The notes under the pieces: generated by a model
What the model was told of the DNA's origin: nothing
The model's input: the letters and a program-made list of their open reading frames with translations, nothing else
Database searches by the model: none
Position numbers and translations under genes: made by a program
Assembly (NCBI RefSeq): GCF_000337375.1
Contig: NZ_AOJG01000028.1
Coordinates: forward strand, 1 to 64,000
Origin: Halorubrum lipolyticum DSM 21995
Lineage (GTDB): Archaea > Halobacteriota > Halobacteria > Halobacteriales > Haloferacaceae
Direction: 5' to 3'
DNA: 64,000 nucleotides
Shown: positions 896-59,127 of the stretch, in pieces
Position numbering within the stretch: position 1 is the stretch's first letter
Layout: every line of letters begins with the position of its first letter

Positions 896-896
896 G

Positions 897-1469: not shown

Positions 1470-1471
1470 CC

Positions 1472-1870: not shown

Positions 1871-1885
1871 ACCGAACCGCGTCCG

Positions 1886-2384: not shown

Positions 2385-2430
2385 ACGCCTATTTACGAGG
2401 TATATTATCTTAGTTGTTACCCGTGCGAAC

Positions 2431-4548: not shown

Positions 4549-5082
4549 AGAATTATTCTGTTACCCCGATAGTAAACTCTTTCTCTGGTTGAACCTGCTT
4601 AGATGTTCCTGAAGCCGGCGATTAGGGCTATTCGGTAGATGAAACCAGTCCGTGAGTATTGGTAACTAGAAGACTAACTTCCACCAGTAACGACGACGGT
4701 CATAACTACTGAAAACACACTACCGGATGAGCCTGGAGACGGTCACCGAGCATCGGTTGGCATTCCAACGCAACTATCAAACGGCATTACAACACTAATA
4801 CTGTAACTAAAAGACAAAATTAAAAATATTATATTCATAATATTCGATAAGGCACGATGATAGTTCAGACGGGTCGACCGTTGCTCGAAAGTCGCGCACG
4901 CGGTGGTGAGACCGAACCCTGGCCGGTAATCGGGAAAACCTCCGCGACCGGGAGAGACTCTCCCAAGCCTGCGGCGCAATCCCGGCGACAGTCCCACTCG
5001 GGGACTCCCGGAGTTCGTCGGAACGGTACCGTGCTTCTGGTTCCCCTCCTTGAAAAACACGCGAATACGGACGCGAAGGCAG
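4549..5082. other. Intergenic region with a GC-rich, hairpin-rich island (4860-5045)
   Basis: Bases 4549-4855 are AT-rich and I see no gene there. Bases 4860-5045 switch to GC-rich sequence with several self-complementary stretches, including GGGAGAGACTCTCCC near 4955 and CTCGGGGACTCCCGGAG near 5015. The open frames across it have no protein-like composition. It could be a structured RNA or the decayed 3' part of a gene; I cannot decide. It lies directly 3' of the adenosyltransferase gene on the minus strand. Confidence 0.4.
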
Positions 5083-5619: not shown

Positions 5620-5692
5620 TGTGTATCCCCGTGTGGAAACCCTCCACTGCGTTGGCTACTGTCTTGTTTGTCATAATGTAATCGTTCATGGT

Positions 5693-5872
5693 TCACTCCC
5701 CGTCACCCCTGACGAACTCGCCCATCGGTCGTTTATGTCCGCAGTGTGGACACGACCACTCGGTTCCGGTGAGATCGTCTCTCGTGATGTCGCTGAGTCC
5801 CCAGTACTCGTCGCACTGTCCACAGTTCACGTGAGCCAACGTTTCGATATATGCCGTGTGGTCCGGTGGCAT
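5693..5872 (-). CDS. Small zinc-ribbon protein (59 aa)
   Basis: The reverse strand from the ATG at 5870-5872 encodes 59 residues with two cysteine pairs, CGQC at residues 16-19 and CPHC at 41-44, about 21 residues apart; this is a classic zinc ribbon. The rest is acidic and polar. Such short zinc-ribbon proteins are abundant in haloarchaea and mostly uncharacterised. It lies between the adenosyltransferase and the reactivase genes on the same strand (73 bases before the former, 101 after the latter), so it may be part of the B12/dehydratase transcription unit. Confidence 0.72.
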   Translation of the reverse strand: MPPDHTAYIETLAHVNCGQCDEYWGLSDITRDDLTGTEWSCPHCGHKRPMGEFVRGDGE

Positions 5873-5973
5873 GATATACAGTATTGGCTGATCTGTTATT
5901 AAACTTCGACTCTCGAATGAGGGGCGTTCAAGCGTCTCGCGGTGGCGAGACCAGGCGAACAGATCCGTGCAGG

Positions 5974-6342
5974 TCAGCCGATCGGTTTCAGTGGCGTCTT
6001 CTTCGCGAGGCGGGCGGAGTTCGAGCCGAGCTTTCGGGCCGTCTCCGGGGACGTCTGGTCGATGTCGAACAGCGGATCGTCGCTGGGGAGTTGCTTGTGA
6101 TGGATAACGACCCGCGAGTCGTGGACGCTGACACCGATTTTCAGTGATGAGTCGTATGACGCTTCGTGAGCGACGGCGACGCCGTCACCGTCGTATCCGT
6201 GCTGGACGACCCATGATACGCCCTCTTCCTCGATCCCGTGTTCGATGTACTGGACGAGTTCCGGAATATCGTCACTGAGACACCGGATAAAGATGCGCGG
6301 GATCTCGTCGTCGGCTTCGATCTCGCCTCGGCAACCACTCAT
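5974..6342 (-). CDS. pduH: Diol dehydratase reactivase small subunit (PduH/DdrB)
   Basis: This 122-residue protein matches the small subunit of diol dehydratase reactivase, a chaperone-like factor that releases damaged cobalamin from inactivated dehydratase. Diagnostic parts are VQYIEHGIEEEGVSW, AHEASYDSSLKIGVSVHDSRVVIHHKQLP and a C-terminal ARKLGSNSARLAKKTP (quoted here only in pieces such as SSLKIGVS and GSNSARL). The fold is related to the medium dehydratase subunit, which it displaces. It begins 32 bases after the stop of pduG on the same strand, so they are co-transcribed. Confidence 0.92.
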   Translation of the reverse strand: MSGCRGEIEADDEIPRIFIRCLSDDIPELVQYIEHGIEEEGVSWVVQHGYDGDGVAVAHEASYDSSLKIGVSVHDSRVVIHHKQLPSDDPLFDIDQTSPETARKLGSNSARLAKKTPLKPIG

Positions 6343-6374
6343 ACGGGAAACGATCTGTGGACAGATACAAAACT

Positions 6375-8276
6375 CTACTGTCCGTCCGTCCGGATCGATG
6401 TCCGTTGGATCGATGAGGATAGTTCCGTGGGTATCTCGAAGTCGAGGTGCGTACCGCCGTCGATGTGGGACAGGACCAGTCCGGTAGCGACGGCGTTGCG
6501 CGGTCCGGTCATGCCACGGACGTTCGCGCGACCACAGACGATGCCGTACTCGGCCATCGCGTCGGAAATCATTTCGGGAATCTCGAAGTCCAGGGCCGAA
6601 CGCCCGACCATGACGACGAACGGGAGGTGGCGGATGTTGTCGGTCGGCGTGATGATGTTGAGCGCTCGCTCGGCGTTTCGGACGAAGACGCGGCGTTTCG
6701 CTCGCTGTCGGACGCGGGAGATCTCCGTGGTGGACATATCGGCCGGGACTGGCCGCATCTCTCCGTCCCCTTTCAGCAGAACGGTCCGTCCGTAGAGTTC
6801 GGGCGCGACCGGTTCGTCCAAGAAGTTGACCGTCCCGTCCTCTTGCCGAATACTGAAGAGGCCCTCGACTTTCGCGGAGGGGTAGATCTTGATGTCCTCG
6901 GCGAGATCACGGTCGTCTAACCCGAGTTCCGATTCGATGAGCATGGTCACTAGATCACCAGCCCCCGAGAGGTGGATCGATTTGATGTGTTTGTCCTCGT
7001 CCATGTACGCGGCGTCGGTCGATCCACCGCCCATATCGAGGATCGCGACGGGGTGGTCGGTCCCGGGCGTGGTCAGCGAGCCGAGCACGGCCATCTTCGC
7101 TTCGACGCCCTGAATGATGACCTCCGTATCCAGTTGCGCTTCGATCCCATCGGCTATCTGTTGCATCGGGAGCTGTTGGGTCTTGACCATCGCGGCCAGC
7201 GCGACGGCGTTCTCCATCGAGTGTTCCCCCGCGACGGATCCCTCGACTTCCTGCGGGATCAGCGTGTCGACCGCCATGATGTCCCGTATCTCGATGGATT
7301 CGACGGGCTGGCCCGTCACCTCCGCCATGCTACCCCGAGCGCGGTTCAACATCCCGCCGATGTTCGAACCGCTTTCCCCCTGAACGTCCGAGACCGGCCA
7401 ACTGTTCATCACTGCGTCCATGATGACGTCGGCCCCCTCATCGACGGGAACCCCGATTGAGTTGCCTCGCTCATCGATGATTTGGAGATTTCCCGCTGGG
7501 ATCGTTCGCTCCTCTACGTCCCCTTCAGGGGTCTTGATCACGACAGCGGACTTGTTGCCGACCAGCGCCCGGGCGACGGGAATGATCTTCTGCGTCTCCT
7601 CTGAAGACAGATCGAACACCGTCGCGATACCGTACGGGTTCGAGAGTTCGTCGATCGTCTTGCCGCTGGCCTGCGGCGCAACCTCGATAGCAGCTGGTTG
7701 CCCGCGTGGAACGTCTTCGAGCATCGAGACCTCGTCGACGATCGGGATGTCGATGTCGATACGGTTGTTGATCAACACGGCGTCGTCGTTCTGGACGATA
7801 GCTCCTGTGATCTCGTAGCCCTCGTCGGTCCACTCGTTGATGATCTCGGCCGCGACCGCGAAATCGACCGATTCCGGAACGAGAAAAATGATCGACTCAT
7901 CGGTCGAGTACGTCGACATGTCTGCCGTGATCTCGACCGTCGTTCCAGTTCCAACTCCGACCCCGCCCGGCGTCGACGGATCGTGGCCGATCATCGTCGA
8001 CTCCGTGATGACCGTCTCGGTGATCGTGTCCATCGCCACGTCGCCGATGACGGGTGCGGCCTCGTTGAGGAGGATGCGATCGATCTCCGAAACGTCGATG
8101 TTCGCTTTTTTCGCCGCCTGCGTGAGCGCTTTGATCACACCGGGAACGTTCTTTTTCGTCCCCTTCAGTCCCGTCGTCCGGTAGAGTGCATCCGAGACGA
8201 ATTCTGAGTCTGACTGACGTAGAAGTGCAACCTCGGTACTGGAGTTACCGATATCAACTCCTGCGATGTAGCCCAT
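6375..8276 (-). CDS. pduG: Diol dehydratase reactivase large subunit, ATPase (PduG/DdrA)
   Basis: The 633-residue protein is the ATPase subunit of dehydratase reactivase, an Hsp70/actin-fold protein. It starts MGYIAGVDIGNSSTEVALL with the first phosphate motif, carries VGVGTGTTVEI, a second phosphate motif DMGGGSTDAAY (about residue 440), and VMVGRSALDFEIPEMI near the end; the length is close to bacterial PduG (about 610). I chose the ATG at 8276 because a TATA-like element sits 20-29 bases upstream (8296-8305) and the longer N-terminus would overlap it. With PduH it exchanges inactive cobalamin for adenosylcobalamin using ATP. Confidence 0.95.
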   Translation of the reverse strand: MGYIAGVDIGNSSTEVALLRQSDSEFVSDALYRTTGLKGTKKNVPGVIKALTQAAKKANIDVSEIDRILLNEAAPVIGDVAMDTITETVITESTMIGHDPSTPGGVGVGTGTTVEITADMSTYSTDESIIFLVPESVDFAVAAEIINEWTDEGYEITGAIVQNDDAVLINNRIDIDIPIVDEVSMLEDVPRGQPAAIEVAPQASGKTIDELSNPYGIATVFDLSSEETQKIIPVARALVGNKSAVVIKTPEGDVEERTIPAGNLQIIDERGNSIGVPVDEGADVIMDAVMNSWPVSDVQGESGSNIGGMLNRARGSMAEVTGQPVESIEIRDIMAVDTLIPQEVEGSVAGEHSMENAVALAAMVKTQQLPMQQIADGIEAQLDTEVIIQGVEAKMAVLGSLTTPGTDHPVAILDMGGGSTDAAYMDEDKHIKSIHLSGAGDLVTMLIESELGLDDRDLAEDIKIYPSAKVEGLFSIRQEDGTVNFLDEPVAPELYGRTVLLKGDGEMRPVPADMSTTEISRVRQRAKRRVFVRNAERALNIITPTDNIRHLPFVVMVGRSALDFEIPEMISDAMAEYGIVCGRANVRGMTGPRNAVATGLVLSHIDGGTHLDFEIPTELSSSIQRTSIRTDGQ

Positions 8277-44274: not shown

Positions 44275-46293
44275 CTAGCCGAACTCGATGTCGGGGAAGA
44301 CCTCGTTATACATGTCGATGATGAATATCTTCTTGCGCCAGATGATCTCCTCGTTGTCTCGGTGGTCCATCTCGTCCGCGACGATGAGGTTCAGCAGCAC
44401 CCAGCAGTTGTAGAGCAGCAGGCACAGCGTGAAGAAGAACCGCCGGACGCCGAGGCACCGACTCCGTGGGTTCGCCAAGAAGTTCTGCTTGATGTCGCGG
44501 AACGCCGTCTCGATGCTCCACCGCTTCCGGTAGAGCTGGCCGACGCCGAACGCAGTCGTTTCAGCGCGTCGCGGCCCGGTGCCGCTCGGATGGAGCCCAC
44601 GAGCCTCTACGTCCAAGCTCGTGATGAACGCCGCGTACTCCACTTCAGTCCCGTCGTCTTCATCCTCGTCGTCCTCTTCGTTGGGTGCGTTCATCCCCGG
44701 CAACGTGGTCTGTGATGACCCGTCGTTCGTCTCGCCCTGCTTCCGCTTCTCGCCCTTCTTCGTGACCGAGCGCGTGATCTTCTCCAAGGCGAGCAGCGTC
44801 GTCTTGTGCATCGTGTGGTCGGCACCCTCTATCTCGTAGTCTGTCCAATCGGCGCGGCCTTCGGCTCCCTCGGCGAGAAACTCCTTGACTGCGCCGCGGG
44901 TCTTCCGCTTCTTGATGACGTAGTCAAGGCCGCAGTGCGTGATGTACGAGCATATCTTTTGCGTTCCGTATTCGCTGTCTGCGTACACGTTGTTCACGTT
45001 CACGAGGCTGCGAGCGCGGTCGATGAGGTAGCGCACGCACTGGTACTGCTCGTCGTCCTTCACCTTCGAGACTGACGCCAGGACGATGGCGCGACCGCGG
45101 TAGATGGCGGTGAGCGTGATGTCCTCGTACGCGTAGCCAGTCTCGTACTTCGGGTAGCGGTGGAGGACGCCGTCGGGCTCCTCGACGTTGGTGTCGTTGC
45201 GGTTGTGGTACTCGCGGGCTGTCCCGTCGATACAGATGTCAACAGGCCGGTCCAGCATCCCGCGCTCTCTCAGCATCTCCACCTGCTTGTCGATCCCGTG
45301 CTCCGTGCGCTTGTGCCACGACTCACCTTCGCCGAAGTCGCGGTCCTCGGGGTTGACCGACCAGTCGTAGGAGGTCTCGCCCGGAACCAGTGCGTTGTTG
45401 CGTGCGTAGTTGAGTTCGGCGAGCTTTCGAGAGTAGTTTCGGAGCGGCTTCGCCAGTGCCTCTGAGCACATGTAATCGTCGTCGGTGACGCGGTGCTCGG
45501 ACACGTACACGTCTCTGCCGCCGGTCACCGATTCGTTGCGCCGGCTCGTGAATGTCGCCTGCTCGGTCAGCTTGTCGGCGTCGATTCTCTTGTTCGGCCC
45601 GCGCCCGTAGTCGATAACGTCGTTGAAGAGCTCGCGGTACTCCTTGAACACGCGGTCGCGCGTCTGTTGCTCGATCCGGTGCTCGTCCGGAATTTCTGTG
45701 TCTTCCTCGGGTTCCGTCGGCAGGAACTCGTGTATCTGTTCGTCGATGTCCTCGACGAGGTTGAAGTCGTGGCCCTTCAGCTTCGCAGCGATGCGAGCAG
45801 CTGCGAATCGGACATGCTCACGGAAGGTCGATCGGTATCGCTCCCACCATTGCGTGGAGAACGTCGTGCGGTTGGGTACTTTGCCGTCCTCGAACCCGAA
45901 TCCGGAAGCAATCTCGGGGTTCTGTTCAAGATACCACTGAAGGGAGTCGAATCCGCTGATGTCGTCCGAGATCATCTTGAGAATGTATGCCCGTATCATC
46001 GCCATCCCGTTGAACGAGGAGTTGATAAGATCGTCTTGCGGGACAACGTCAACGACCTCGTACTGAAGCTGGTCGGCGATTGAATCCCGATTCGCGTAGG
46101 ACTCCGCACGCGCTTGCTCGATGGCTTCTATTAGCTCCGCGGACTTCCCAGAGTAGTCATCTGGTTCGGAGAGCGCAGCGGAAAGCTGGTTTTGACGGGT
46201 ATTTGAGACGTGCTCAGAGATATCCGCAGTCGTGTACGGCCCACCCGAATCCTCCAAGACAGGAAGGGCGTCGTCGGGTAGGTGATCGGTCAT
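44275..46293 (-). CDS. IS4-like DDE transposase (672 aa)
   Basis: The protein is a long haloarchaeal DDE transposase. The catalytic residues are visible: first Asp in DICIDGTAREYH (about 350), second Asp in NVYADSEYGTQ (about 434), and Glu in KRWSIETAFRDIKQNF (about 598) with the Tyr/Arg-type context of IS4 elements. An N-terminal helical region (1-260) binds DNA; an acidic stretch EEDDEDEDDG lies before the C-terminal part. No frameshift is seen, so the gene looks intact. I could not find matching terminal repeats near 44200 and 46320, so the element borders are not set. Confidence 0.88.
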   Translation of the reverse strand: MTDHLPDDALPVLEDSGGPYTTADISEHVSNTRQNQLSAALSEPDDYSGKSAELIEAIEQARAESYANRDSIADQLQYEVVDVVPQDDLINSSFNGMAMIRAYILKMISDDISGFDSLQWYLEQNPEIASGFGFEDGKVPNRTTFSTQWWERYRSTFREHVRFAAARIAAKLKGHDFNLVEDIDEQIHEFLPTEPEEDTEIPDEHRIEQQTRDRVFKEYRELFNDVIDYGRGPNKRIDADKLTEQATFTSRRNESVTGGRDVYVSEHRVTDDDYMCSEALAKPLRNYSRKLAELNYARNNALVPGETSYDWSVNPEDRDFGEGESWHKRTEHGIDKQVEMLRERGMLDRPVDICIDGTAREYHNRNDTNVEEPDGVLHRYPKYETGYAYEDITLTAIYRGRAIVLASVSKVKDDEQYQCVRYLIDRARSLVNVNNVYADSEYGTQKICSYITHCGLDYVIKKRKTRGAVKEFLAEGAEGRADWTDYEIEGADHTMHKTTLLALEKITRSVTKKGEKRKQGETNDGSSQTTLPGMNAPNEEDDEDEDDGTEVEYAAFITSLDVEARGLHPSGTGPRRAETTAFGVGQLYRKRWSIETAFRDIKQNFLANPRSRCLGVRRFFFTLCLLLYNCWVLLNLIVADEMDHRDNEEIIWRKKIFIIDMYNEVFPDIEFG

Positions 46294-46325
46294 ACATCAG
46301 ATCAGCGCTTCTTAACTTATAAAAT

Positions 46326-46392
46326 AACGGCTCTGTTGAAATCCTCGGTAGGTGATATATTCTGACCCGGTTGCGGTCAATACAGGGGACTC
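46326..46392. mobile_element. IS-like end next to the transposase
   Basis: CGGCTCTGTTGAAATCCTCGG followed by GCGGTCAATACAGGGGACTC (quoted in parts of 20 bases or fewer) repeats, inverted, the end at 32862-32924. It is a relic of an insertion element, about 30 bases beyond the start of the IS4-like transposase, which may have inserted beside or into it. Confidence 0.5.
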
Positions 46393-46428
46393 ATACACCA
46401 GATTAGACGAAGTATTTTGTTATCAGAG

Positions 46429-46608
46429 CTATTGTTTGATGGGTGAGATGATGAAGAACGCGAACCCCAGTCCGATACCACTCCCAATCGTGCGATGAAA
46501 TTCAACTGGGCCAGAAAAGAATAATACTTGAACGAAGAGTGAGGCTAAAGCTTCAACAAAGAATCCAAAAAGAGCATTCTGGCGAGAAGACAACTGGTAG
46601 TTATTCAT
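46429..46608 (-). CDS. Tiny two-helix membrane protein (59 aa), possible immunity protein
   Basis: Reverse translation from the ATG at 46606-46608 gives 59 residues: a Ser/Arg-rich start (NNYQLSSRQN), a hydrophobic segment ALFGFFVEALASLFVQVLFF (residues 12-31), a polar turn with PVEFHRTIGS, and a second hydrophobic segment GIGLGFAFFIISPIK. It is AT-richer than the chromosome average and sits in the same orientation as the next small membrane protein and the Tat-exported protein. By analogy with bacteriocin loci it could be an immunity protein; the sequence gives only the membrane prediction. Confidence 0.5.
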   Translation of the reverse strand: MNNYQLSSRQNALFGFFVEALASLFVQVLFFSGPVEFHRTIGSGIGLGFAFFIISPIKQ

Positions 46609-46791
46609 ATTTGAATTTAAATAGTATCAAGTGGTAAACATTTACCTCCGGTTTTAATTTTTAATCCGCCCCTCAATACGCAGCCTTCAGCGACTGGATG
46701 TTCTAGGTGAAAATATGTCTGAAAATAGGATTTCAACAGGGCACTTTGTAAAATTCGGAGTGCTTGATCGATGTCTATCAACGCTCTCTCG

Positions 46792-47034
46792 TTACAGCCC
46801 AACCTTTCGGAGCGGATACCACATTATAAACGGGAGTGACACGCCGACAATGATGATCAAGAGAAACATTACCGAGTCAGAGACCCCAAGAGCATCTTGA
46901 CCGAGTGTCACAACTACCGCATTCACAGCAAGGATAGCGAGTCCGATCAGGCCGTATCCTATGATACGGTTGTCAAAATCACCACCTGACTCCCGATACT
47001 CTCTCTTGTAGTCTTCGACTAATCGTCCAATCAT
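46792..47034 (-). CDS. Small two-helix membrane protein (80 aa)
   Basis: The 80-residue protein has a charged N-terminus (GRLVEDYKREYRESGGDFDNR) and two membrane segments, IIGYGLIGLAILAVNAVVVTL and VMFLLIIIVGVSLPFIMWYPL, separated by GQDALGVSDS, with a basic end (RKVGL). It starts 44 bases after the stop of the Tat-exported protein, in the same direction, so co-transcription is likely. No family recognised. It could protect the membrane from the exported protein, or be an unrelated membrane protein. Confidence 0.6.
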   Translation of the reverse strand: MIGRLVEDYKREYRESGGDFDNRIIGYGLIGLAILAVNAVVVTLGQDALGVSDSVMFLLIIIVGVSLPFIMWYPLRKVGL

Positions 47035-47078
47035 TGGATCAATTTTCTCACAAAATATAATAAGTTTTCTGGCCCGCT

Positions 47079-48059
47079 CTACGAGCTGATCGTTACAACC
47101 TCTTCATATCCGACCGGTGGTGGGGACGCATCTTCAAGATGGAGAAGCGGCGGGTCCGAACCGTAGGTGAGCATGTCTGTATCTTCATCCATCCAGATAC
47201 CACTCACTAGTGGTTGGATCGCAGCCTCACAGACCCCAAAGGCACATTTGTCGATATCACGGTAAGCCGATGTAATGTTTGTCGTGTCTTTGAGCTCATC
47301 AATTGCGAACCCCACGAGTCCTCCAAGGACTGAGCCGAGTGCGGCACCCGGAATAGAAGCAGCCAGTCCTCCGAGAATAGCTCCTAAAGCGGACGTAATA
47401 ACCTCAGTTGTTAGGTCACCGAGAACCTTCTCGTAATCAATTGAAGCGCCAAGTTGGCGGTGGGGGTTTTGGTCAGTGACTGTGGTGTCACACGCTGTTC
47501 CATCTGGGCTGTCAATAAAGTACGCGCCAACTCTGTTGATCGAATCTTTTGCCCCTGCCGCAATTTCTTCAAGAATGTCTCGTAGTAGAGACTTCTGCTG
47601 TGTAGAGATGCCCGACGGATCCGTTGCTTCTCGGATGGGACCCCAGATATCTGTATATTCGTTTTCATCTGACTTTACATTCACGCCCTGAGTACTCGCT
47701 TCCTGTTCGTTCTGATCGTCGAAAATAGAGGCTTCCACCTGACTGACTATGTCCTTAGAGACGGCAAGAACGTCACCACTATCCGACTGATGTGAATGGG
47801 AATCGATCGAATCTGCTGATTGAATTGACCGAACGAACGCCGTAGCGTCGGTTTCTCCCGTTTCCGTGTTGCGAGCGACCGCAATGGAGTATACCTTGTC
47901 ATCCTCAACCGTGCGATCAACACGAACTTCGACGTCAGCTTGGGACTGATCTTGGCTTGCTTTCTGCTTAGACGCAGCAGTAGTTCCTGACAGAGCGGAG
48001 AACCCTGCGGTAGCACCAACGATTCGACCGAATCTTCTGCGATTGATCGGATTAACCAC
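47079..48059 (-). CDS. Tat-exported protein with glycine-rich hydrophobic segment, halocin-like
   Basis: The 326-residue protein (GTG start) has a twin-arginine signal, NRRRFGRIVGATAGFSAL (residues 6-23), with a cleavage-like TTAASK. A variable acidic part (35-200) follows, then a 40-residue glycine/alanine-rich hydrophobic hairpin (about 214-253: ALGAILGGLAASIPGAALGS plus VLGGLVGFAI), three cysteines (190, 272, 277; CAFGVC) and an acidic tail. GxxxG hairpins of this type occur in pore-forming bacteriocins and toxins. Together with the adjacent small membrane proteins this suggests a halocin-type secreted toxin; no sequence match to halocin C8 or H4 was recognised by eye. Confidence 0.5.
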   Translation of the reverse strand: MVNPINRRRFGRIVGATAGFSALSGTTAASKQKASQDQSQADVEVRVDRTVEDDKVYSIAVARNTETGETDATAFVRSIQSADSIDSHSHQSDSGDVLAVSKDIVSQVEASIFDDQNEQEASTQGVNVKSDENEYTDIWGPIREATDPSGISTQQKSLLRDILEEIAAGAKDSINRVGAYFIDSPDGTACDTTVTDQNPHRQLGASIDYEKVLGDLTTEVITSALGAILGGLAASIPGAALGSVLGGLVGFAIDELKDTTNITSAYRDIDKCAFGVCEAAIQPLVSGIWMDEDTDMLTYGSDPPLLHLEDASPPPVGYEEVVTISS

Positions 48060-48261
48060 AGATTAAATCTATCGCCATTTGTATTCATGCCATTGGTTCG
48101 GAAAAATACGAAGTAATCGACTTTTAACGAGAAGTAACTACCCCCTACTACACTCTCGCGTTTTATCCAAATTTCATTTCGGCTCAAAGTAGTTGTAATC
48201 AAGAATACAGTGACCCGCCTCAGCATACCTTACGTCTCTAGTAGTTTGTAGGAAAGTCTTA

Positions 48262-48280
48262 AGTTAAATAACACTTAACT
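48262..48280. promoter_or_regulatory. Inverted repeat around the regulator promoter
   Basis: AGTTAA and TTAACT flank ATAACAC; the dyad lies 12-31 bases before the ATG of the divergent regulator and overlaps its AT-rich TATA region (GTTAAATAA). It is a good candidate operator for autoregulation or for control of the exported-protein gene. Confidence 0.5.
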
Positions 48281-48292
48281 GTAAATGAAGCC

Positions 48293-49111
48293 ATGTCGAG
48301 CCCCGCCACCGATGAACTCGCCACTATCCTCCTCAAGCGCTATGAGTGTCTCAACGCACTCGTCAACCATCCCCAAGCCAAACCCGAACTCGTTGACACA
48401 CTCAATATGCCTCGTTCAACTCTTGATGATGTCGTTCGTGAACTTGAACGGGCTGATCTCGTTGAATACGGAGATGGAGACTGGTATCCAACACAGTCAG
48501 GCCGGTTAGCCTGCTGCGCACACCGCGACTACCTCGACCGACTCAACAGCCTCAAAAATATTTCATCAATGATTGATTCCGTGGGCACTGGTGAGAAGGT
48601 CAGTTGGGCGTTCATCAACGGTGCGGACACCTACGAAAACCACTCAAGTGTTCAGGACGCCGTGATGACTGAGCTCCTAGACTTTGCCGAAGTAGCCACT
48701 GAGATTCGTGTTGTAACACCGAATATTGTTTCTGGGTATGCTGACAATTTCTACCAAAGCGGGATTTCAGGGCAAGATACCACGTTCGAGATAATCATTC
48801 CTCCAGAGATCCATACCTGGTTTCAATCAACGCATCCGTCAGCAGCGAAGAATATACTTAACGATCCGAATATAGACATTTTACAGACTTCCATCCCATT
48901 CTCATTCGGGCTTTCAATATTTGACCACGACCACGCAGGAATCACAATCTTCACTGAACATGGGATAGCTGGTCTGCTTGTCAACGATACCGACGACGCA
49001 CTCGCCTGGGCGGAGGAACAGTACAAGCGTGTGAAACGGGATGCAGAGCCCCTCTTTCTGCGCGGAGCGTCTACCAACACCCAATTAGATAGCTCAACAA
49101 GTCAGTTCTGA
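48293..49111 (+). CDS. HTH regulator with FilR1-like domain
   Basis: The 272-residue protein opens with a winged helix (residues 8-75: ILLKRYECLNALVNHPQAKPELVDTLNMPRSTLDDVVRELERADLVEYGDGDWYPTQSG; recognition helix RSTLDDVVREL). The C-terminal domain (about 100-255) resembles the FilR1/DUF1724-type domain: VTPNIVSGYADNFYQ, IIIPPEIHTWF, FSFGLSIFDHDHAGITIFTEHGIAGLLVNDTDDALAWAEEQY (parts). It is divergent from the Tat-exported protein gene with a 233-base shared region and likely controls it. Confidence 0.8.
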   Translation: MSSPATDELATILLKRYECLNALVNHPQAKPELVDTLNMPRSTLDDVVRELERADLVEYGDGDWYPTQSGRLACCAHRDYLDRLNSLKNISSMIDSVGTGEKVSWAFINGADTYENHSSVQDAVMTELLDFAEVATEIRVVTPNIVSGYADNFYQSGISGQDTTFEIIIPPEIHTWFQSTHPSAAKNILNDPNIDILQTSIPFSFGLSIFDHDHAGITIFTEHGIAGLLVNDTDDALAWAEEQYKRVKRDAEPLFLRGASTNTQLDSSTSQF

Positions 49112-49141
49112 TCTGAATATTGTAGGAAATATACTCTTTAC

Positions 49142-49417
49142 TCATATCGCAACGGGCGCAGATCGTCCACACCCCGTACAAGCACGGTGGATTATTGAGC
49201 TATCCCAGTGTTCATAGAGTGTCAAGAAGATCAGTTCGTCAAGTACGCCACGGAAGGTTATGTCCTTCCGCACTGTGGGACAGATCAGAACAACGTGCTG
49301 GGGAAGTGTATAGCGATGTTTGGAGATCTTTGAGGAGTATCGAGAAACGGATCGGCGGGCCAAATGGCTCGCCTTCTCAGTAAACCGGAGAATCTGCGAT
49401 TTCGGGAGGGCCTTCAT
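49142..49417 (-). pseudogene. N-terminal fragment of an IS5-like transposase
   Basis: The fragment (91 aa) reads LPKSQILRFTEKASHLARRSVSRYSSKISKHRYTLPQHVVLI (pieces: LPKSQILRFTEKA, HRYTLPQHVVL, GVLDELI), the N-terminal pattern of haloarchaeal IS5-type transposases, and then goes out of frame. Ends are visible upstream at 49494-49545 (CTGTTGAATCC, TCTCATCTGAAACAGC). It is a dead remnant. Confidence 0.65.
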
Positions 49418-49493
49418 TTCGTGGAATTACAGGTCGAATATGTAACTCTCTGAGGATATTGATCATCTAGAGTCAGTAGTCACGAAAATTTGA

Positions 49494-49545
49494 CCCTGTT
49501 GAATCCTCTTTTTTGGACAGATTCTCATCTGAAACAGCCGTTCGA
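49494..49545. mobile_element. IS end of the truncated IS5-like element
   Basis: CTGTTGAATCCTC, a T-rich run and TTCTCATCTGAAACAGC repeat the end type at 32287-32335 with several mismatches. It marks the upstream end of the remnant transposase on the minus strand. Confidence 0.5.
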
Positions 49546-49724
49546 TGAGAGATGCTAATTCAGTACTGGGAATCATCATTTCACCGTGTCATTTCCGCCG
49601 AATCCAATATTAATATCAATTTCCCCGTCTATCTGCTGTTCATCGCGGCCAACACAGTCCATAGTCGCCGTGAGCGTCTGTACCTCGGTTCTATCGAGAA
49701 ACAGGGAAACACACCTCCAAGCCT

Positions 49725-49953
49725 TGGTTCAGGTAGACGTCCTCAAATTGCTGCTCGTTGAGTCCCCGCTGCTCGGCCATCGCGTCGAAGAGGTCTATCA
49801 ACGCCTCGCGGGCTTCGTCTTCGAGCTCGGCCAGTTTGTCGTCCTCGATTTATTCCCGACGATACACAGATTCGTGTGCACATCGTTCACGAGCCTGAAC
49901 GCGTGTCTCGTCGGGTACTCCGTCGGGTGAAGTTGCTGAATACCTTCTGCCAT
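49725..49953 (-). pseudogene. Frameshifted gene remnant of unknown type
   Basis: From the ATG at 49951-49953 the frame reads MAEGIQQLHPTEYPTRHAF then RLVNDVHTNLCIVGN, after which the natural continuation lies in another frame (IEDDKLAELEDEAREAL, LFDAMAEQRGLNEQQFEDVYL). A single-base shift near 49848 explains this. The acidic helical protein is not recognised. Confidence 0.5.
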
Positions 49954-49996
49954 CACATTCTTACCCACATGATCAAGAACTGTGGTTCTTCGCCGC

Positions 49997-50246
49997 ATGG
50001 ACAACGATAAGATGGCCGAGACAGCAATTATCGAACGTGCTGCGCCCCCGAGACCCACCCGAACCAGACGAAGCCCTCGATGGGATGGTCGTCAACCGCT
50101 GCTAGGTCGTCGCCGATCTCGTTGTGGAGTTCGAGGACGACTACGACCCGTCGCGCGGGACCGTGCGGAATCTGTTAGAATGCCTCGTTGAAGAGCAGTC
50201 GGTCGAACGCGTGAAGCACGCGAACGGTACAGTGACGTATCGGTGA
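49997..50246 (+). pseudogene. Broken winged-HTH protein
   Basis: The sequence reads MDNDKMAETAIIERA, then shifts frame near 50040 (PPRDPPEPDEALDGMVVNR), hits a TAG at 50113-50115, and continues VVADLVVEFEDDYDPSRGTVRNLLECLVEE up to HANGTVTYR. The later part has a helix-turn-helix with YDPSRGTVRNLLE as recognition helix. One frameshift and one stop mark it as a pseudogene. It faces away from the remnant at 49725-49953. Confidence 0.6.
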
Positions 50247-52204: not shown

Positions 52205-53053
52205 ATGGGCTGGTCAGAGTGGAGGGATCGCGTCGCCCAAGCCATCGCTTCGGGCGATGTGACGACAGATACAGCCGATTCAGACGACGGTGGGAGCGGT
52301 TCCAGCAGCGCCAGCACCACCGTCGTCTCCGAACTGGCTGGGACGCGAGATTCCCATCACAACGATCCGACTTCCCCTGGGGAATGCTCGCTTCGGGAGA
52401 TTAAGAAACAGATTATCATCTTCGATCAGAAAATCGACAGGATATCCAACAAACTCGGCGAACACGAGCAAGCGTATCGGCGAGAACTCGCGCAGGGGGC
52501 CGAGGCGGATGATGCGACACAGCAGGTGCACGTCGTCAAGGCCGTCGTCCAGCGAAATCGGTATCAGCTCGCCCACCTCCGTCGACTGCAGTTGCTGAAG
52601 AATCGAATGCTCTGGGAGACGGCGAAGGCCCAGCGCGAGCTGTCCGAGGACTTCAGCAAACACGGGTTCGAAGCCCCCATCTCGGCGTCGGGGAACATCG
52701 AGTTCGACATCGAAGAGTTCCAGCAGAAGATCGACGAGGTCAACGCGGAACTCCGGTACCAACTCGAGGAGATCGAGACTGCGGTACAGTCGAGCGGCCG
52801 TGGTGTCGACTCAGTCGTCGATTCCAACACGCCGGAGTACAGGTTGATGAACGAGATCGCCACCGGCGAACGGAATCCCGAGAGTGTCACCATCGACGTG
52901 GAGGGGGCGGCCGATGCGGGGACGGCGTCGCAGGATATTCCGGGTGGTACCGGCGGAATGAACGACTTTCAGGAGGAAGTTGGGATGTTTGAATCGCTCG
53001 AAAAACTGCACAGTCGCGTCGATCAACAAACCCCAGTCACCGATGACCACTGA
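52205..53053 (+). CDS. ESCRT-III/PspA-like coiled-coil protein 1
   Basis: The 282-residue protein starts with a short amphipathic stretch (MGWSEWRDRVAQAIASG) and a disordered Ser/Asp linker (20-62). A long helical hairpin (about 64-155) follows: IKKQIIIFDQKIDRISNKLG, then QQVHVVKAVVQRNRYQLAHL, RLQLLKNRMLWETAKAQREL; basic residues line it as in the alpha1-alpha2 hairpin of ESCRT-III. A second acidic helix is at 168-195 (DIEEFQQKIDEVNAELRYQL) and the motif EYRLMNEIATGE at 211-222. The paralogue at 58312 aligns along this whole length. The gene's last bases overlap the AAA ATPase start. By topology it would polymerise on membranes and be remodelled by the ATPase. The ATG at 52205 fits the amphipathic start. 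Confidence 0.6.
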   Translation: MGWSEWRDRVAQAIASGDVTTDTADSDDGGSGSSSASTTVVSELAGTRDSHHNDPTSPGECSLREIKKQIIIFDQKIDRISNKLGEHEQAYRRELAQGAEADDATQQVHVVKAVVQRNRYQLAHLRRLQLLKNRMLWETAKAQRELSEDFSKHGFEAPISASGNIEFDIEEFQQKIDEVNAELRYQLEEIETAVQSSGRGVDSVVDSNTPEYRLMNEIATGERNPESVTIDVEGAADAGTASQDIPGGTGGMNDFQEEVGMFESLEKLHSRVDQQTPVTDDH

Positions 53054-54455
53054 CGACATGACCACCAGCGGAGGAACCGTCGGAGGACTCGACGACCTGA
53101 CCCGCGAGATCCTCTATGAAAACACAAAATCGGACCTCGACAGCCACATCGAGACGGCCAACCGGAAAGTCAACGCGTACGAGCCTGCTGCGGCAGCCGA
53201 AGCGTTTCGCAAGGCCGCCTCGGCTGCGAGTGAGCTCGCGGAGATGGCGCAGTTGCCGGCGCGTGTTGAGGGGTTCGAATCGGCCGCAGAGGAGTACCGG
53301 TCGTATGCGGCCACGTTGGAGGACCGGGGGATGGACGCGATCACCGATTCGGGAGCCGATCCCAACACGCCTGCCGAAACGGCCGATTCCGGACAGGCAT
53401 CGGAGGCGTCCCCACCGACGGGAGGCGCCCCGGCGTCCGGTGGCCGAGACGGCCGGGAAGCCTCCGAGCGGGGCGGCTCCGCAGGTGAAGACACGGACGG
53501 CCTCCGCCAGGACGCGCTATCCGTCTCGCTCGAATCGCCCGACATCGACATGGACGACGTCGGGGGGATGTACGATCTCAAACAGCGGCTCATGGACGAC
53601 GTCGCCGAGCCCATCCAACGAAAGGACCTCCACCAGTACTACGGCGTCGAAACCGTCGGAGGGGTCGTGCTGCAAGGGCCGCCCGGAACTGGCAAGACCC
53701 ACGTTACGCGTGCGTTCGCAGGTGAACTCGGGTGGAACTTCATCGAGCTGTCCCCCGCGGAGGTGGTGAGTGCGCTCGTGGGCGAGGGGGCACGGAACAT
53801 CCGGGAGGTGTTCGAGATCGCGAAGGACAACCAGCCGTGTCTGATCTTCTTCGACGAGATCGACAACATCGCGAAAGACCGCAGCAGTACGACTCAGCGG
53901 TCGCAAAACGAGGAGGCAATGCTGACGCAGCTACTGACCGAGATGACGGCGCTCGACGATCACGACGTCGTCGTGTTCGCAGCGACGAACCAGCCGGCAG
54001 AGGTCGACGAGGCGGTGTTCAACGCCGAACGGTTCTCGGAAGTCATCGAGGTCCCGCGCCCCGACGCCCAGGCCCGTCCGGACATCCTCCGTGTCCACCT
54101 GCGGAAGCGGCGCGTGCCCGTCGAGACGATCGACTTCGACGAGGTCGCCGAGCGCACTGCCGGGTTTTCCGCGGCCGATATGAAGCAGATCGCCCGCGGT
54201 GCCGCACAGGCGGCGCTCCGGAAGGCCAAATCGAGCGGTGACCTGGTCCCGATCCGCCACGAGCACGTCCTCGAAGGGATCGAGAAGCGGCGCGAAAGCG
54301 TCGCTGACCGTGACGGGAAGGACTACCTCGAACGGCCCAACGGTGGCGGCGGGGGTGGCGTGGGGAACCGCTCCGGGCGAGCCGACGCCGGCACGAGCAC
54401 GGGCGGGGACGCGGACAGCCTGCTAAACGACGACTTCGACATGGAGGGGATGTAA
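53043..54455 (+). CDS. Vps4-like AAA+ ATPase with MIT-like N-terminal helical domain
   Basis: The 470-residue protein has a three-helix N-terminal domain (about 28-95: LDSHIETANRKVNA / AAAAEAFRKAASAASELAEM / ARVEGFESAAEEYRSYAATL), similar in helix spacing to MIT domains of Vps4/CdvC. A disordered linker (96-160) leads to one AAA+ module: DDVGGMYDLKQRL, Walker A GPPGTGKT (212-219), pore-loop VVSALVGEGARNIREVF, Walker B LIFFDEID (267-274), sensor-1 ATNQP (314-318), Arg in AERF (330), and GFSAADMKQIARGAA (374-388). A single AAA domain after MIT is the Vps4 plan. It overlaps the preceding ESCRT-III-like gene by 11 bases; a second ATG at 53058 is possible. The G-rich tail ends DDFDMEGM. Confidence 0.78.
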   Translation: MTTDDMTTSGGTVGGLDDLTREILYENTKSDLDSHIETANRKVNAYEPAAAAEAFRKAASAASELAEMAQLPARVEGFESAAEEYRSYAATLEDRGMDAITDSGADPNTPAETADSGQASEASPPTGGAPASGGRDGREASERGGSAGEDTDGLRQDALSVSLESPDIDMDDVGGMYDLKQRLMDDVAEPIQRKDLHQYYGVETVGGVVLQGPPGTGKTHVTRAFAGELGWNFIELSPAEVVSALVGEGARNIREVFEIAKDNQPCLIFFDEIDNIAKDRSSTTQRSQNEEAMLTQLLTEMTALDDHDVVVFAATNQPAEVDEAVFNAERFSEVIEVPRPDAQARPDILRVHLRKRRVPVETIDFDEVAERTAGFSAADMKQIARGAAQAALRKAKSSGDLVPIRHEHVLEGIEKRRESVADRDGKDYLERPNGGGGGGVGNRSGRADAGTSTGGDADSLLNDDFDMEGM

Positions 54456-56020
54456 TGGGACTCAACATCAACAAGGAGGCCGTTGAGGTGGCCGGCAAGA
54501 CGATCGCGATGCTCGTGTTCGGGATCCTCGCCGGGTGGATGGTCGTTCGAGCGTGGGCGGTGGACGACACGCTCCTGCGTGAACTGGTCGGGATCGCGAT
54601 CGAGGCCGTCGAACCGTTCCCCGCGGGTGCCCCGCTCGAGTTGCTCCTGTGTTTCTTCCTCGGCGCGCTGGGAGCGACATGGCTGTTCTTCACCCTCGAC
54701 TGGCGCAAGCACGTGTCGGGGATCATCCTCGGCGTGTTCACCGCCGTCATGCTGTGGGCGGTGTGGTACCTGGGATGGGGCCTCGCGAACGTCCCGCTGT
54801 CGCCATGGAATGTCCTCGCGGGCGTGGTGGGGTTCATCGTGGGAGCGTACCCTCACAAGCGGGCGCTGTTCGACCAGATCGGGCGTGACGCCTCCGAGGA
54901 CGGCTTCGAGTTCCCGCTCGCGATCGTGTTGCTTCCGATGGTGCTTGGAGGGATCGTCCTCATCTCGTTCGGACAGTCGCTGCTGGCGGGCACCAGCATC
55001 ATCGCCGCCGACGCATTCGTCACCGTCGGATTCCTCTACAGCATGCTCGGGTTGGTGACGTACAGTCAGACGGTCCGTGTGATGCCCTGGGGGATCAAGC
55101 AGACCGGGAAGTCGGTGGGCTGGTACGGGATCTACCGCGCCAATGCCGTCCTCCACGATATCGGACTACGCCCCTCGGAGAAACTGCAGACGTTCGACCG
55201 AAACATGCAGAACCTCCCGGCCGGTGCTCACCTCAAAGAGGCGATCCCGTCGACGACGTTCACCGACGACCTGAAGTTCTCCGTCCCGATCGGGAACCTG
55301 TTGCCGCTACGGGCGGAACTCGCATTGCCCGACCTGGAGGGGGAGATCGCCCGCGACGTCGCTAAGAAACTCCAAGACTGGGGGATCCCCAAGGAGGTTC
55401 TCTCGCGGCTGCTCGTCATCCCGTACCTGCTCGGTGACACGCGGCTCCCGGTCATCGGAGAGTGGGAACTCACTGAGAGCCAGGAGGCGCTGCTTTTGGC
55501 GCGGTGGCTGCGCGACTCCGAGATCGTCCCGTTGTTCATCGACGTGTCGCGCTTCTACGACTCGAACGACGACACGGGGCTCGACGCGATGCGAGCGGTC
55601 GCTGAGGTCCTCTCCGATGAGGGCGTCCACCTGATCCCGGTCGCCGCGAAGGCCGACACCGCTCTGGATCGGGCGACCATCCGGGAGGAGTGGCTCTTCG
55701 GTAACGAAGTCGACGACGAGATCCTCAGAGCAGATGGTGGGGCGGTGATGGGTGGAGAGATCACCAGCGGAAACGAGCAAGACGGCATCAACTCGCTCGG
55801 AGAGATGATCACCAGGGATCTCGCCGCCCACAAGATCGGGAGCCAGGTGCTCAACCTGTGTGACGAAGACCAGGTCTTCCCGACCGGGATGAAGATGCGG
55901 GAGAACGACAAGGGCGAGATGGTCCCGGTGTGGGACGAGCACGGAAACGAGCAGACGTTCGGGTTCGAGCTGCTCGCCGAGCACGTCACCGAGGTGGTGG
56001 AGGACCGTGTCTACCTGTAG
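54455..56020 (+). CDS. Polytopic membrane protein with large cytoplasmic domain, unknown
   Basis: The 521-residue protein has about six membrane helices in the first 215 residues (AMLVFGILAGWMVV, LLLCFFLGALGATWLFF, IILGVFTAVMLWAVWYLGWG, VLAGVVGFIVGAY, IVLLPMVLGGIVLISFG, AFVTVGFLYSMLGLVTYS), then a soluble alpha/beta domain (about 240-521) with IVPLFIDVSRFYDSNDD and HLIPVAAKADTALD; the latter resembles a GTPase G4 TKAD-type strand, but I see no P-loop. The ATG shares one base with the ATPase stop (TAATG), so translation is coupled. It is likely the membrane anchor or receptor of the system. No homologue recognised. Confidence 0.65.
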   Translation: MGLNINKEAVEVAGKTIAMLVFGILAGWMVVRAWAVDDTLLRELVGIAIEAVEPFPAGAPLELLLCFFLGALGATWLFFTLDWRKHVSGIILGVFTAVMLWAVWYLGWGLANVPLSPWNVLAGVVGFIVGAYPHKRALFDQIGRDASEDGFEFPLAIVLLPMVLGGIVLISFGQSLLAGTSIIAADAFVTVGFLYSMLGLVTYSQTVRVMPWGIKQTGKSVGWYGIYRANAVLHDIGLRPSEKLQTFDRNMQNLPAGAHLKEAIPSTTFTDDLKFSVPIGNLLPLRAELALPDLEGEIARDVAKKLQDWGIPKEVLSRLLVIPYLLGDTRLPVIGEWELTESQEALLLARWLRDSEIVPLFIDVSRFYDSNDDTGLDAMRAVAEVLSDEGVHLIPVAAKADTALDRATIREEWLFGNEVDDEILRADGGAVMGGEITSGNEQDGINSLGEMITRDLAAHKIGSQVLNLCDEDQVFPTGMKMRENDKGEMVPVWDEHGNEQTFGFELLAEHVTEVVEDRVYL

Positions 56021-57743
56021 ACTCTACGACCTCAACCGGGTCGTCAAGGCACCGCAGGGCGAGAGCGCGCCAGCGGATGAAAAAGACCTGATCGACCGAC
56101 TCAGGCAGGCCGGTCACGCCGACCTGTACGTCGACGTGGCAACGGGGGTGATCGCCGCACGGGTGACCGCACTGCAGACGGTCGGCGCGGGGGCGCGGAT
56201 CGACGAGAAGTACGTCGTCTTCACCGACGAGGACGCGGCCGATTCGGAGAGTCTCTTCGCGGCGTTCGGAACCGCCGTGAGCGACCTGTTCGATGACGAT
56301 GACCTCGTCGTGCCGGGAGACGAGGACTGGGAAACCGTAGAGGGCCTTCGAGAGTGCCTCGACATCGATCCCGGCGCACAGGCCGACGCGACGATCCATC
56401 CCGCCATCCCCGCTGGCGTGTTGGATCCCGAGACGCTCGAATGGCCTTCGGCTGACAGCGGTGCAGCTGAGGCGAAGAACTCGTCACAAGAACCTACGAC
56501 CGCCGACACCGGCAGAGGTTCGGCCGAGCATGACGGGACAACTCCGTCTCGACGAGATGACCCCCAAGTCGGGGACGGGAGAAATTCCCGGGTTGGACAG
56601 CCCAGATCCGGGGCGTCTCCCGCTGAGGAGCCGAACGGACGGCGTGGTACCCAGTGGACGACGACCGGCGAACGGCGGGGCCGGACGAGTGATGATTCGG
56701 CGAATGAACACCCAGCCACCTCAGCCGGAGGTGAGCCGGGTCAGGAAACGACTCCGGTAAAGGATGTCGACTGGTCGGCGCTTGCAACCGCTGACACCGA
56801 GTTCGTATCGCACCTGCGAACTGCGCTGCAGGCGCACGGGTCCGGTGTCGATTTCGATCGGCGTCGCGCCCGAGTCAAACACGTGGCCGGCGACGTTCAG
56901 AGCACGATACTGCGCGAGCCAGACTGCCTTCGCGTCGCGGTGGCCGACTACCTGACAGCCATGGACGTGGCACGCCAGTGTGCCGATGTCGGATCCCCCC
57001 TGCTGGTCGGTGCGAGTACCGATCCGTCAGTGTTCGAAGACCTCCGGCTGACCATCGACTACGCGGGCTTGGAGACGAACGATGCTGTGACGACCCGGAC
57101 GGAGCGATACCTCGGGTACGCCGAGCGGATCGCCGAGTGCAGCGCAGTCTCGAATGCCGCTGCTCCCGTTACAGACGCCGTCGAGGCGGTCGTCTCGGCC
57201 GACACCAACGTCTATCAGACTGCCCGCGACCTCAAGGAGATCAAGGAAGCGACTATCGACAGTCCGCATCGCAGGGGGCTCTACGACGAGGACGCTGCCA
57301 GCTCCGCCGCTGCCCGAGCTGTGGACACGTACTGGGACCAGTGGGACTCGTTGGACCGGTCGGAGCGCGACGCCTTCGAGACTCAAGTTGGGACTGCACT
57401 CGCCGAGCGGAAGGACGCCGTCGACGAACGCGCACACCACGACGCCAAATCGATGGTCGATGAGGCTATCCAGACGGCTGGGGACCGCGTCGCGTTCGCA
57501 CAAACGGGGGTCGATGACGTCCGGGGCGAGTTGATCGACCCGCCGTGGGCGGACACCTCGTGGTACAAGCGTCCACGGGTGATCGGCGCGGCGCTTGGCC
57601 TCGGTGGCGCCTTCGTCGTCGGACTGCTCGCCTTCGTTGGACTGTCCGTCGCCTCGGCGTTCGGTCCGCTTCCCTGTCGAACCGACGTCACCGTCTTCGG
57701 GTGGCGGGTCACGGCTGACCTCTGCCTGCTCACAGTTGGCTGA
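56007..57743 (+). CDS. Tail-anchored multidomain protein, unknown
   Basis: The 578-residue protein (GTG start overlapping the preceding gene by 14 bases) has an alpha/beta N-terminal domain (1-130, ADLYVDVATGVIAARV), a long disordered Ser/Gly/Arg linker (about 140-250), a helical domain (about 255-520) and a single C-terminal membrane segment (ALGLGGAFVVGLLAFVGLSV, near 535-560) with little after it, so it is tail-anchored with most of it in the cytoplasm. I recognise no family. Overlapping frames tie it tightly to the membrane protein and AAA ATPase genes, suggesting a complex at the membrane. Confidence 0.62.
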   Translation: MSTCRLYDLNRVVKAPQGESAPADEKDLIDRLRQAGHADLYVDVATGVIAARVTALQTVGAGARIDEKYVVFTDEDAADSESLFAAFGTAVSDLFDDDDLVVPGDEDWETVEGLRECLDIDPGAQADATIHPAIPAGVLDPETLEWPSADSGAAEAKNSSQEPTTADTGRGSAEHDGTTPSRRDDPQVGDGRNSRVGQPRSGASPAEEPNGRRGTQWTTTGERRGRTSDDSANEHPATSAGGEPGQETTPVKDVDWSALATADTEFVSHLRTALQAHGSGVDFDRRRARVKHVAGDVQSTILREPDCLRVAVADYLTAMDVARQCADVGSPLLVGASTDPSVFEDLRLTIDYAGLETNDAVTTRTERYLGYAERIAECSAVSNAAAPVTDAVEAVVSADTNVYQTARDLKEIKEATIDSPHRRGLYDEDAASSAAARAVDTYWDQWDSLDRSERDAFETQVGTALAERKDAVDERAHHDAKSMVDEAIQTAGDRVAFAQTGVDDVRGELIDPPWADTSWYKRPRVIGAALGLGGAFVVGLLAFVGLSVASAFGPLPCRTDVTVFGWRVTADLCLLTVG

Positions 57744-57803
57744 ACACACGGTCAACCAACACCACGCAGCAATGCTCGTCGAACTCTTCCCCCGTTTGCA
57801 CGT

Positions 57804-58106
57804 ATGCCACTCCAGACACGCTGGTACACGTTCCGGCCCCATCGGCCACCGGAGGTGGTCGGTGTGTACGAACTCGGGCGCGGTGCTCCGACCGAGTCGG
57901 GAACCGCGATCCTCTATATCGGACAAGGAAAGATACGCGACCGGCTGCTCGCGCACGCACGGGACGATGAAAAACCCGCGTGGCAGCGTTACCGTGCGGT
58001 CCGAGTCTGTGACCGCCGGCGAGCGCGGCAGATCGAGCGCCGGGAGCTCAGACGGTTCCGGGAGCGCCACAGTCGCCTCCCTCTGTATAACCACCAACTC
58101 GGGTGA
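57804..58106 (+). CDS. GIY-YIG-like endonuclease-fold protein (100 aa)
   Basis: The 100-residue protein shows the GIY-YIG signature: GVYELGRG (about 20) and LYIGQGKIRDRLLAHAR (about 37-52), the Arg in IRDRLL, the Glu in RRQIERRELRRF-like QIERRELRRF, and Asn in LPLYNHQLG at the end. All five residues usually needed for catalysis are present. It is smaller than UvrC or homing endonucleases and basic. It lies 60 bases after the tail-anchored protein gene in the same direction, so it may be co-transcribed, although a nuclease has no evident link to membrane remodelling. It could also be a non-catalytic nucleic-acid binder. Confidence 0.68.
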   Translation: MPLQTRWYTFRPHRPPEVVGVYELGRGAPTESGTAILYIGQGKIRDRLLAHARDDEKPAWQRYRAVRVCDRRRARQIERRELRRFRERHSRLPLYNHQLG

Positions 58107-58280
58107 GGTTGCTCCCGATCTCGCACCGTCGTGGAGTGGCGACGCGCGACTGATCTCTCAACTAAACTGTTTCCCCCGCATTGCCGCCGGCAATCGCGGC
58201 ACCATATGAAAGGGCAAATTGGCAATTACAGGGGATATAAGGCTTGTTTCTGGGTTGTGCGCCACAAGACAGCGAGACGG

Positions 58281-58290
58281 CATATACAAG
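58281..58290 (+). promoter_or_regulatory. TATA-like promoter of ESCRT-III-like gene 2
   Basis: CATATACAAG lies 22-31 bases before the ATG at 58312 in the gap after the GIY-YIG-like gene. It indicates separate, leaderless transcription of the second coiled-coil gene. Confidence 0.5.
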
Positions 58291-58311
58291 AGCGGGCCGT
58301 TACTGTGAGTG

Positions 58312-59127
58312 ATGCCTGGCATTGAGATGCTGTTGGCAGGAGTCGGGGTTGGAATGACTGCACCCGTGGCCGGATACGCTGCGGGCGTGTGGCCGTTCAA
58401 CCGCGGCACGGAACAGGAGCAGACAACCACTGAGGAGGCGACCGAGGACGAGACGGCGGAAGCGACGAGCGAGCGCGACGAGGAACTGAACGTCCGGATC
58501 CAGAGCCGGCAGGCCGCTCGGTCACTCGATCAGGCCGAGGCGCAGCTTCAGAGCTTCCGTGAGGCGTACAAGAAGCTCATGCAGCAGGGCGCCGCCACCA
58601 CCTCCGAGAGCGCTCGGAAGGTGTTCGCCATCAAGGCTCGCGCGGTCAAGTTCAAGGCTCAGGTCCAGAACCTCCAGCGGATGAAGGCGCTCAAGGAACT
58701 GTGCGCGTGGACCGTCGCCGGTGCCCAAAGCGAGATCGAGGGCATGATCGAGGAGATGGACCTCGAGTCCAACGCACTGGAGATGATCGACTCCGACCCG
58801 CAGGAGATCCAGTCGGAGATCGACCGCCTCCAGGCCAGCATCGAGCGCGACATGGAGGAACTGGACGACGTGTTCGCCGCGGGCAACGGCGTGGACGTCG
58901 GGCAGAGCAGCATGCCCACCGTGGAGGAGCAGCAGCTGATGAACGAGATCGCGGACGGCGACATGGACATCGAGGATGTCGACCTGGATGTCGATGAGGA
59001 CCACTCTGAGGTGTCCCAGGCGGCGCTGGCCGCCACCGAGGCCGCGACCGTCGAAACGCCGGAGCTGGACATCGACCTCGATATGGGGTCCGACGACTTT
59101 GCCGCCGGCGCCGTTCAGTCGGACTGA
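58312..59127 (+). CDS. ESCRT-III/PspA-like coiled-coil protein 2
   Basis: The 271-residue protein begins with a hydrophobic, Gly-rich segment (MLLAGVGVGMTAPVAGYAAG) that may insert in or lie on the membrane, then a Glu-rich linker. A helical hairpin (about 58-150: RQAARSLDQAEAQLQSFREA; ARKVFAIKARAVKFKAQVQN; LQRMKALKELCAWTVAGAQS) aligns with protein 1 (shared pattern V..VKA, L.R...LK, W..A.AQ). A further helix (164-187: PQEIQSEIDRLQASIERDME) precedes EEQQLMNEIADGD, the same terminal motif as protein 1, and a long acidic tail. This is the ESCRT-III order: basic helical hairpin, acidic helix, C-terminal ligand for the ATPase. GTG at 58309 is an alternative start. Confidence 0.6.
   Translation: MPGIEMLLAGVGVGMTAPVAGYAAGVWPFNRGTEQEQTTTEEATEDETAEATSERDEELNVRIQSRQAARSLDQAEAQLQSFREAYKKLMQQGAATTSESARKVFAIKARAVKFKAQVQNLQRMKALKELCAWTVAGAQSEIEGMIEEMDLESNALEMIDSDPQEIQSEIDRLQASIERDMEELDDVFAAGNGVDVGQSSMPTVEEQQLMNEIADGDMDIEDVDLDVDEDHSEVSQAALAATEAATVETPELDIDLDMGSDDFAAGAVQSD

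Follow-up and report, generated by a model that had tools for sequence, protein, structure and literature searches.

ESCRT systems of euryarchaea, including those of Halobacteriales, were published in 2024 (PMC10936438). An earlier, sequence-only reading of the DNA studied here had held that Halobacteria are generally thought to lack ESCRT, which is out of date, and that the locus would be an unrecognised ESCRT type in haloarchaea, a claim of first recognition that is wrong because the Halobacteriales systems were already in print. In a separate line of work, the association of FtsZl1 with a membrane GTPase has been described (PMC2875224), and the DO-GTPase GAP1-N2 systems, with tubulin, HSP70 and kinase as published themes, have been proposed to be conflict systems (PMC7159879). 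ESCRT and the GTPase-driven formation of vesicles tend to be regarded as distinct ways of remodelling membranes (PMC10927574). What is newly seen in the locus described here is an ESCRT module joined to a membrane GTPase module whose usual associate is a tubulin-like protein.

The stretch analysed, hereafter the window, comprises 64,000 nucleotides of Halorubrum lipolyticum DSM 21995 (positions 1 to 64,000 of contig NZ_AOJG01000028.1). The operon lies at 52205-59127, with all genes on the + strand. It starts with CC1, a predicted ESCRT-III-family protein of 282 aa (52205..53053), followed by a Vps4-like AAA ATPase of 470 aa (53043..54455), a membrane-anchored GTPase of 521 aa with six TM helices (54455..56020), a tail-anchored partner of 578 aa (56007..57743) and CC2, the second predicted ESCRT-III-family protein, of 271 aa (58312..59127). 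The overlapping start and stop codons noted earlier in the operon core were confirmed, the overlaps being about 11 bp between CC1 and the ATPase gene, 1 bp between the ATPase and membrane-protein genes (ATGTAATGG) and 14 bp between the membrane-protein and tail-anchored genes. The gap that precedes CC2 contains a small ORF (57804..58106, +) which matches Pfam DUF7508 just under the cut-off (3.5e-5), has no counterpart in the Halorubrum vacuolatum cluster and is probably a passenger. The window copy of the operon is flanked by nickel-transport genes, and its divergent upstream gene, P0007, is unrelated to the upstream gene of the H. vacuolatum cluster. Just 5' of the operon, the region from 46000 to 50000 is AT-rich (48% GC vs about 60-65%) and includes a FilR1-type regulator. 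At the other end of the window (2-8276), a gene cluster that looks to encode a diol/glycerol dehydratase and its reactivase was noted, judged by the first residues only.

A complete and co-linear copy of the operon (coiled coil, AAA, six-TM protein, tail-anchored protein, coiled coil) is present in Halorubrum vacuolatum DSM 8800, on contig NZ_FZNQ01000034 (L008/L051). As the encoded proteins are only about 22-48% identical to those of the window, the gene order has been kept across a long divergence, and since the flanks of the two copies are unrelated, the set of genes has long been conserved as a unit and is not a product of chance. These are the only 2 of 52 Halorubrum genomes with the ESCRT and membrane GTPase operon, and the combination was not found outside them in 391 Halobacteria, 170 family and 52 genus genomes or in a pattern-based scan of a larger set. 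When contigs were scanned genome-wide with the pair of AAA sequences, the H. vacuolatum cluster was returned, the other matches being AAAs that have no coiled-coil or GTPase gene nearby.

The two coiled-coil proteins are paralogues that bracket the operon, as the sequence-only reading had stated: in a genome-wide search, CC2 matched only itself and CC1 (E=2.3e-15, 31% identity). Neither of them matched a curated family. Searched with a profile built from the four ESCRT-variant proteins, 19 of the 391 Halobacteria genomes proved to contain relatives, and at the loci read most relatives sit immediately 5' of a single-AAA ATPase of the MIT-AAA, Vps4 type. These loci also carry PP2C, SPFH, Zn-ribbon, roughly 174-aa and 660-aa genes, whose arCOG identity was judged by gene size, gene order and the first residues, and this gene composition is that of the published euryarchaeal ESCRT systems (PMC10936438). 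Methanogen relatives of the family show the same gene plan. A profile assembled without the variant, from 15 homologues at other loci that are counted as ESCRT-III by the match of those loci to PMC10936438, gave E=1.1e-15 for CC1 (0.11 for the best of 1000 block-shuffled sequences) and E=2e-13 for CC2. Among the loci read, one from a methanogen (L193:157-6397) has two adjacent ESCRT-III-like genes flanked by two MIT-AAA ATPases, and another (L194:6913-13649) has a pair each of Vps4-like AAA and ESCRT-III-like genes, together with genes resembling the arCOG08177 and arCOG09748 neighbours.

Alignment of the enlarged coiled-coil family to a reference alignment of six eukaryotic ESCRT-III sequences by hhalign gave a score of 43.1 over 122 columns, in register (P=2.8e-5), compared with a mean of 17.3 (sd 3.3, maximum 31) for 120 block-shuffled controls and 13.9 for the reversed control; the variant-only alignment gave P=0.001. 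The test used four human CHMP rows and the E. coli PspA; the sequence checked against the PDB was yeast Snf7, whose row differs from it by 1 residue. That PspA might be closer to the family than Snf7 was considered and rejected, the single-sequence test being negative. The AF2 model of CC2, made from a 19-row alignment, has low pLDDT (64) and places helices at residues 49-96, 100-149, 164-192 and 205-215, in the order expected of ESCRT-III. The best PDB match of this modelled hairpin in Foldseek is the CdvB2 filament 9s98 (E=0.15, prob 0.84), which is not significant alone; PspA, Vipp1, CHMP1B and Asgard ESCRT-IIIB are included in the top 50, none significantly, and BAR domains score alike. 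In a viral structure library a Megaviridae Snf7 protein came at rank 8, with nothing significant, and a direct hmmsearch of the PDB with the coiled-coil profile gave no ESCRT match up to E=10. Pfam Snf7 (PF03357) matched neither CC1 nor CC2; it also stayed below its cut-off throughout 295 phylum genomes and in Sulfolobus acidocaldarius, so that it is insensitive in archaea and not a fair defining test. Both paralogues share a conserved C-terminal helix, 'EEQQLMNEIA'. On the profile evidence, we assign CC1 and CC2 to the ESCRT-III family.

The ATPase has one AAA module, matched by Pfam AAA in a single stretch (1.6e-34) and preceded by a helical, MIT-like N-domain (about 53085-53360), the architecture that had been read from the sequence at the outset; it is 48% identical to its H. 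vacuolatum partner. The family profile of the N-domain (A6, window included) matched the MIT domains of CdvC in the PDB (2w2u, 7e-4; 4lcb, 1.6e-3; 2v6y, 8e-3), and Pfam MIT was matched in 8 of the 14 family members. With a profile made without the window and H. vacuolatum sequences, the H. vacuolatum N-domain was clear (34.2 bits) and the window N-domain alone was marginal (14.5 bits vs 14.0 for the best shuffle). In the AAA tree, whose branches are long, the two proteins form a pair (support 100/99) inside the haloarchaeal MIT-AAA set; the grouping with these proteins, apart from the Cdc48/PAN of the same genome, has support of 95/93, and the haloarchaeal group does not join yeast Vps4. By its domain plan, the operon ATPase is classed as an MIT-AAA protein of the Vps4 type. 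The ESCRT-III/Vps4 assignment proposed from the sequence thus holds, on the linkage of the coiled-coil family to MIT-AAA genes, the MIT match to CdvC and the hhalign score above all shuffled controls. Neither the lack of a helical hairpin, nor an N-domain unrelated to MIT, nor an evident relationship with a phage or secretion apparatus, the findings that had been named as counting against it, was encountered.

The third gene had been described as encoding a six-helix membrane protein; the six TM helices were found, within aa 7-201, but the C-terminal GTPase domain that follows them had been overlooked. This domain contains the P-loop GIKQTGKS (about aa 213-220) and the motifs DLEG and AKAD, its AF2 model shows an alternating strand/helix order, and its Foldseek list consists mostly of GTPases (septin, Rab28, Ras, RagA, YcjX), with no match below E 0.02. 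The H. vacuolatum homologue passes the cut-off of Pfam DO-GTPase2 (PF19993) at 5e-8; the window GTPase itself is below detection by this model, though it has the motifs and belongs to the same family. No Pfam match to GAP1 was found in the operon. The tail-anchored partner has one TM near its C-terminus and an 'RLYD' N-terminus.

Relatives of the membrane GTPase were found by a family profile in 17/52 Halorubrum genomes. In the main group of loci read in other Halorubrum, the gene order is Tubulin_2 (FtsZl1, about 1050 aa), then the six-TM GTPase, then a single-pass partner, which has outer CarboxypepD_reg domains and an 'RIYD' motif. These loci correspond to the FtsZl1 and membrane GTPase association of PMC2875224 and are similar to the DO-GTPase GAP1-N2 systems of PMC7159879. 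The H. vacuolatum tail-anchored protein is homologous to this partner (9e-6), and the window protein, which has no significant sequence match, resembles it by position and short N-terminal motif only. In the window and in H. vacuolatum, ESCRT-III and Vps4 occupy the position held by Tubulin_2/FtsZl1 in the related loci. H. vacuolatum carries both kinds of locus, FtsZl1-type and ESCRT-type, and no Tubulin_2 was found in the window genome. The GTPase tree leaves the grouping of the ESCRT-linked GTPases as one clade unsupported either way. At a further locus (L011:6129-14850), a GTPase homologue with a degenerate P-loop lies between Tubulin_2 and genes for a J-domain protein and HSP70, which fits the published DO-GTPase themes. 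Another ESCRT/tubulin-like association is found in family f3 genomes (L039:8873-13226 and L040), where a 402-aa ESCRT-III-family protein adjoins two Tubulin_2 proteins and no MIT-AAA was seen nearby.

It is probable that the operon encodes an ESCRT-III/Vps4-type membrane-remodelling machine and that a membrane GTPase governs its assembly, a control that we infer from the operon structure only. The six-TM GTPase and the tail-anchored protein would mark and switch a membrane site, at which the two ESCRT-III paralogues would co-polymerise. The MIT domain of the ATPase may bind their C-terminal 'EEQQLMNEIA' helix, and the ATPase would then remodel or dismantle the polymer. The output would likely be envelope deformation or scission (vesicles, repair, virus or plasmid handling) and not normal division. 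As the ESCRT pair stands in the FtsZl1 position, this GTPase module appears able to work with either of two polymers that are not related to each other, which suggests a membrane GTPase switch open to filament systems of two unrelated kinds. We give even odds to the reading that a membrane-GTPase switch conserved in haloarchaea acts on interchangeable polymers, namely FtsZl1 at most Halorubrum loci and ESCRT-III/Vps4 at this one.

GTPase-gated envelope remodelling is the favoured reading, and its main rival is a conflict role, in which the membrane GTPase would sense infection and trigger an ESCRT polymer to seal, kill or vesiculate the membrane. This antiviral role is a possibility of some weight, though less probable than not: the GTPase falls among the DO-GTPase systems, for which conflict functions were proposed (PMC7159879) and whose Pfam model the H. 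vacuolatum copy passes, the operon is patchily distributed, and the H. vacuolatum copy adjoins an Mrr-type nuclease and part of a transposase, but PADLOC gave no system match and the neighbours of the window copy are nickel-transport and not defence genes. Matches of the AAA to IetA/TRIP13 reflect generic AAA similarity and the IetS partner is absent, so that a defence identity of this kind was rejected. The patchy distribution would also suit a module for egress, linked to a virus, a plasmid or vesicles, as opposed to a host envelope machine, as would the AT-rich 46-50 kb stretch upstream and the role of ESCRT in Sulfolobus vesicle budding (cited in PMC10936438). However, viral contigs contained no relatives of the coiled-coil proteins or GTPase, no relatives of P0003 were found in plasmids nor of P0006 in phages, one further search gave only distant AAA, and no capsid or replication genes were recognised nearby by eye, which makes egress improbable.

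Two further explanations concern the identity of the ATPase and the cellular role of the operon. One is that the ATPase is an unfoldase of the Cdc48/PAN type, whose coiled-coil adaptors are unrelated to ESCRT, as NCBIfam might suggest, since its PAN and CDC48 models outscore that of CdvC on the AAA; yet relatives of the ATPase from published-type ESCRT loci score alike, the AAA tree groups it with them, and both the MIT and the coiled-coil profiles point to ESCRT, so this identity is very unlikely. A second, Cdv-like cell-division machine is suggested by the CdvB/CdvC division ESCRTs of TACK archaea (PMC10936438), but it is the least likely of the readings weighed here, since six FtsZ/tubulin-superfamily genes are kept in the same genome and the operon is rare in the genus; furthermore, no CdvA-like gene was recognised in the operon.

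If the interchangeable-polymer reading is true, GTPase-gated ESCRT would be a further class, in addition to the Main, FHA and adaptin types already described. The operon would offer a tractable archaeal case in which the GTPase and ESCRT routes are coupled, and would allow a direct test of one switch with two unrelated filament types; working genetics exist for Halorubrum (cited in PMC10927574). The searched texts of PMC2875224 and PMC7159879 describe no ESCRT version of their systems, and a literature search, with preprints outside its scope, found no paper joining 'double-GTPase' and 'ESCRT', nor the combination of ESCRT with a membrane GTPase.

Among the described systems, the operon resembles the Main and Halo_FHA types of euryarchaeal ESCRT (PMC10936438) in having a homologous ESCRT-III-family protein immediately 5' of an MIT-AAA ATPase. 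Unlike them, it has two ESCRT-III paralogues, one at either end, and a membrane GTPase with a tail-anchored partner, and it is without arCOG09748/08177-like, kinase or phosphatase genes. An arCOG09748-like gene was also absent from the whole genome and from H. vacuolatum, and was found in the positive controls. The FtsZl1 (PMC2875224) and DO-GTPase GAP1-N2 (PMC7159879) systems have, like the operon, a six-TM GTPase and, after it, a partner that spans the membrane once, whereas the operon has ESCRT-III and Vps4 in place of the tubulin-like gene of the FtsZl1 systems and its partner is without their outer CarboxypepD_reg domains. With TACK CdvB/CdvC the operon shares the plan of ESCRT-III plus MIT-AAA, the CdvB2 filament being the best structural match, but no CdvA was recognised, the sequence similarity is at profile level only and FtsZ-family genes are kept. 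Finally, ArvA, the GTPase of haloarchaeal vesicles (PMC10927574), is implicated in haloarchaeal membrane remodelling, as the operon GTPase would be; ArvA is a small GTPase, whereas P0003 of the operon is a six-TM membrane GTPase.
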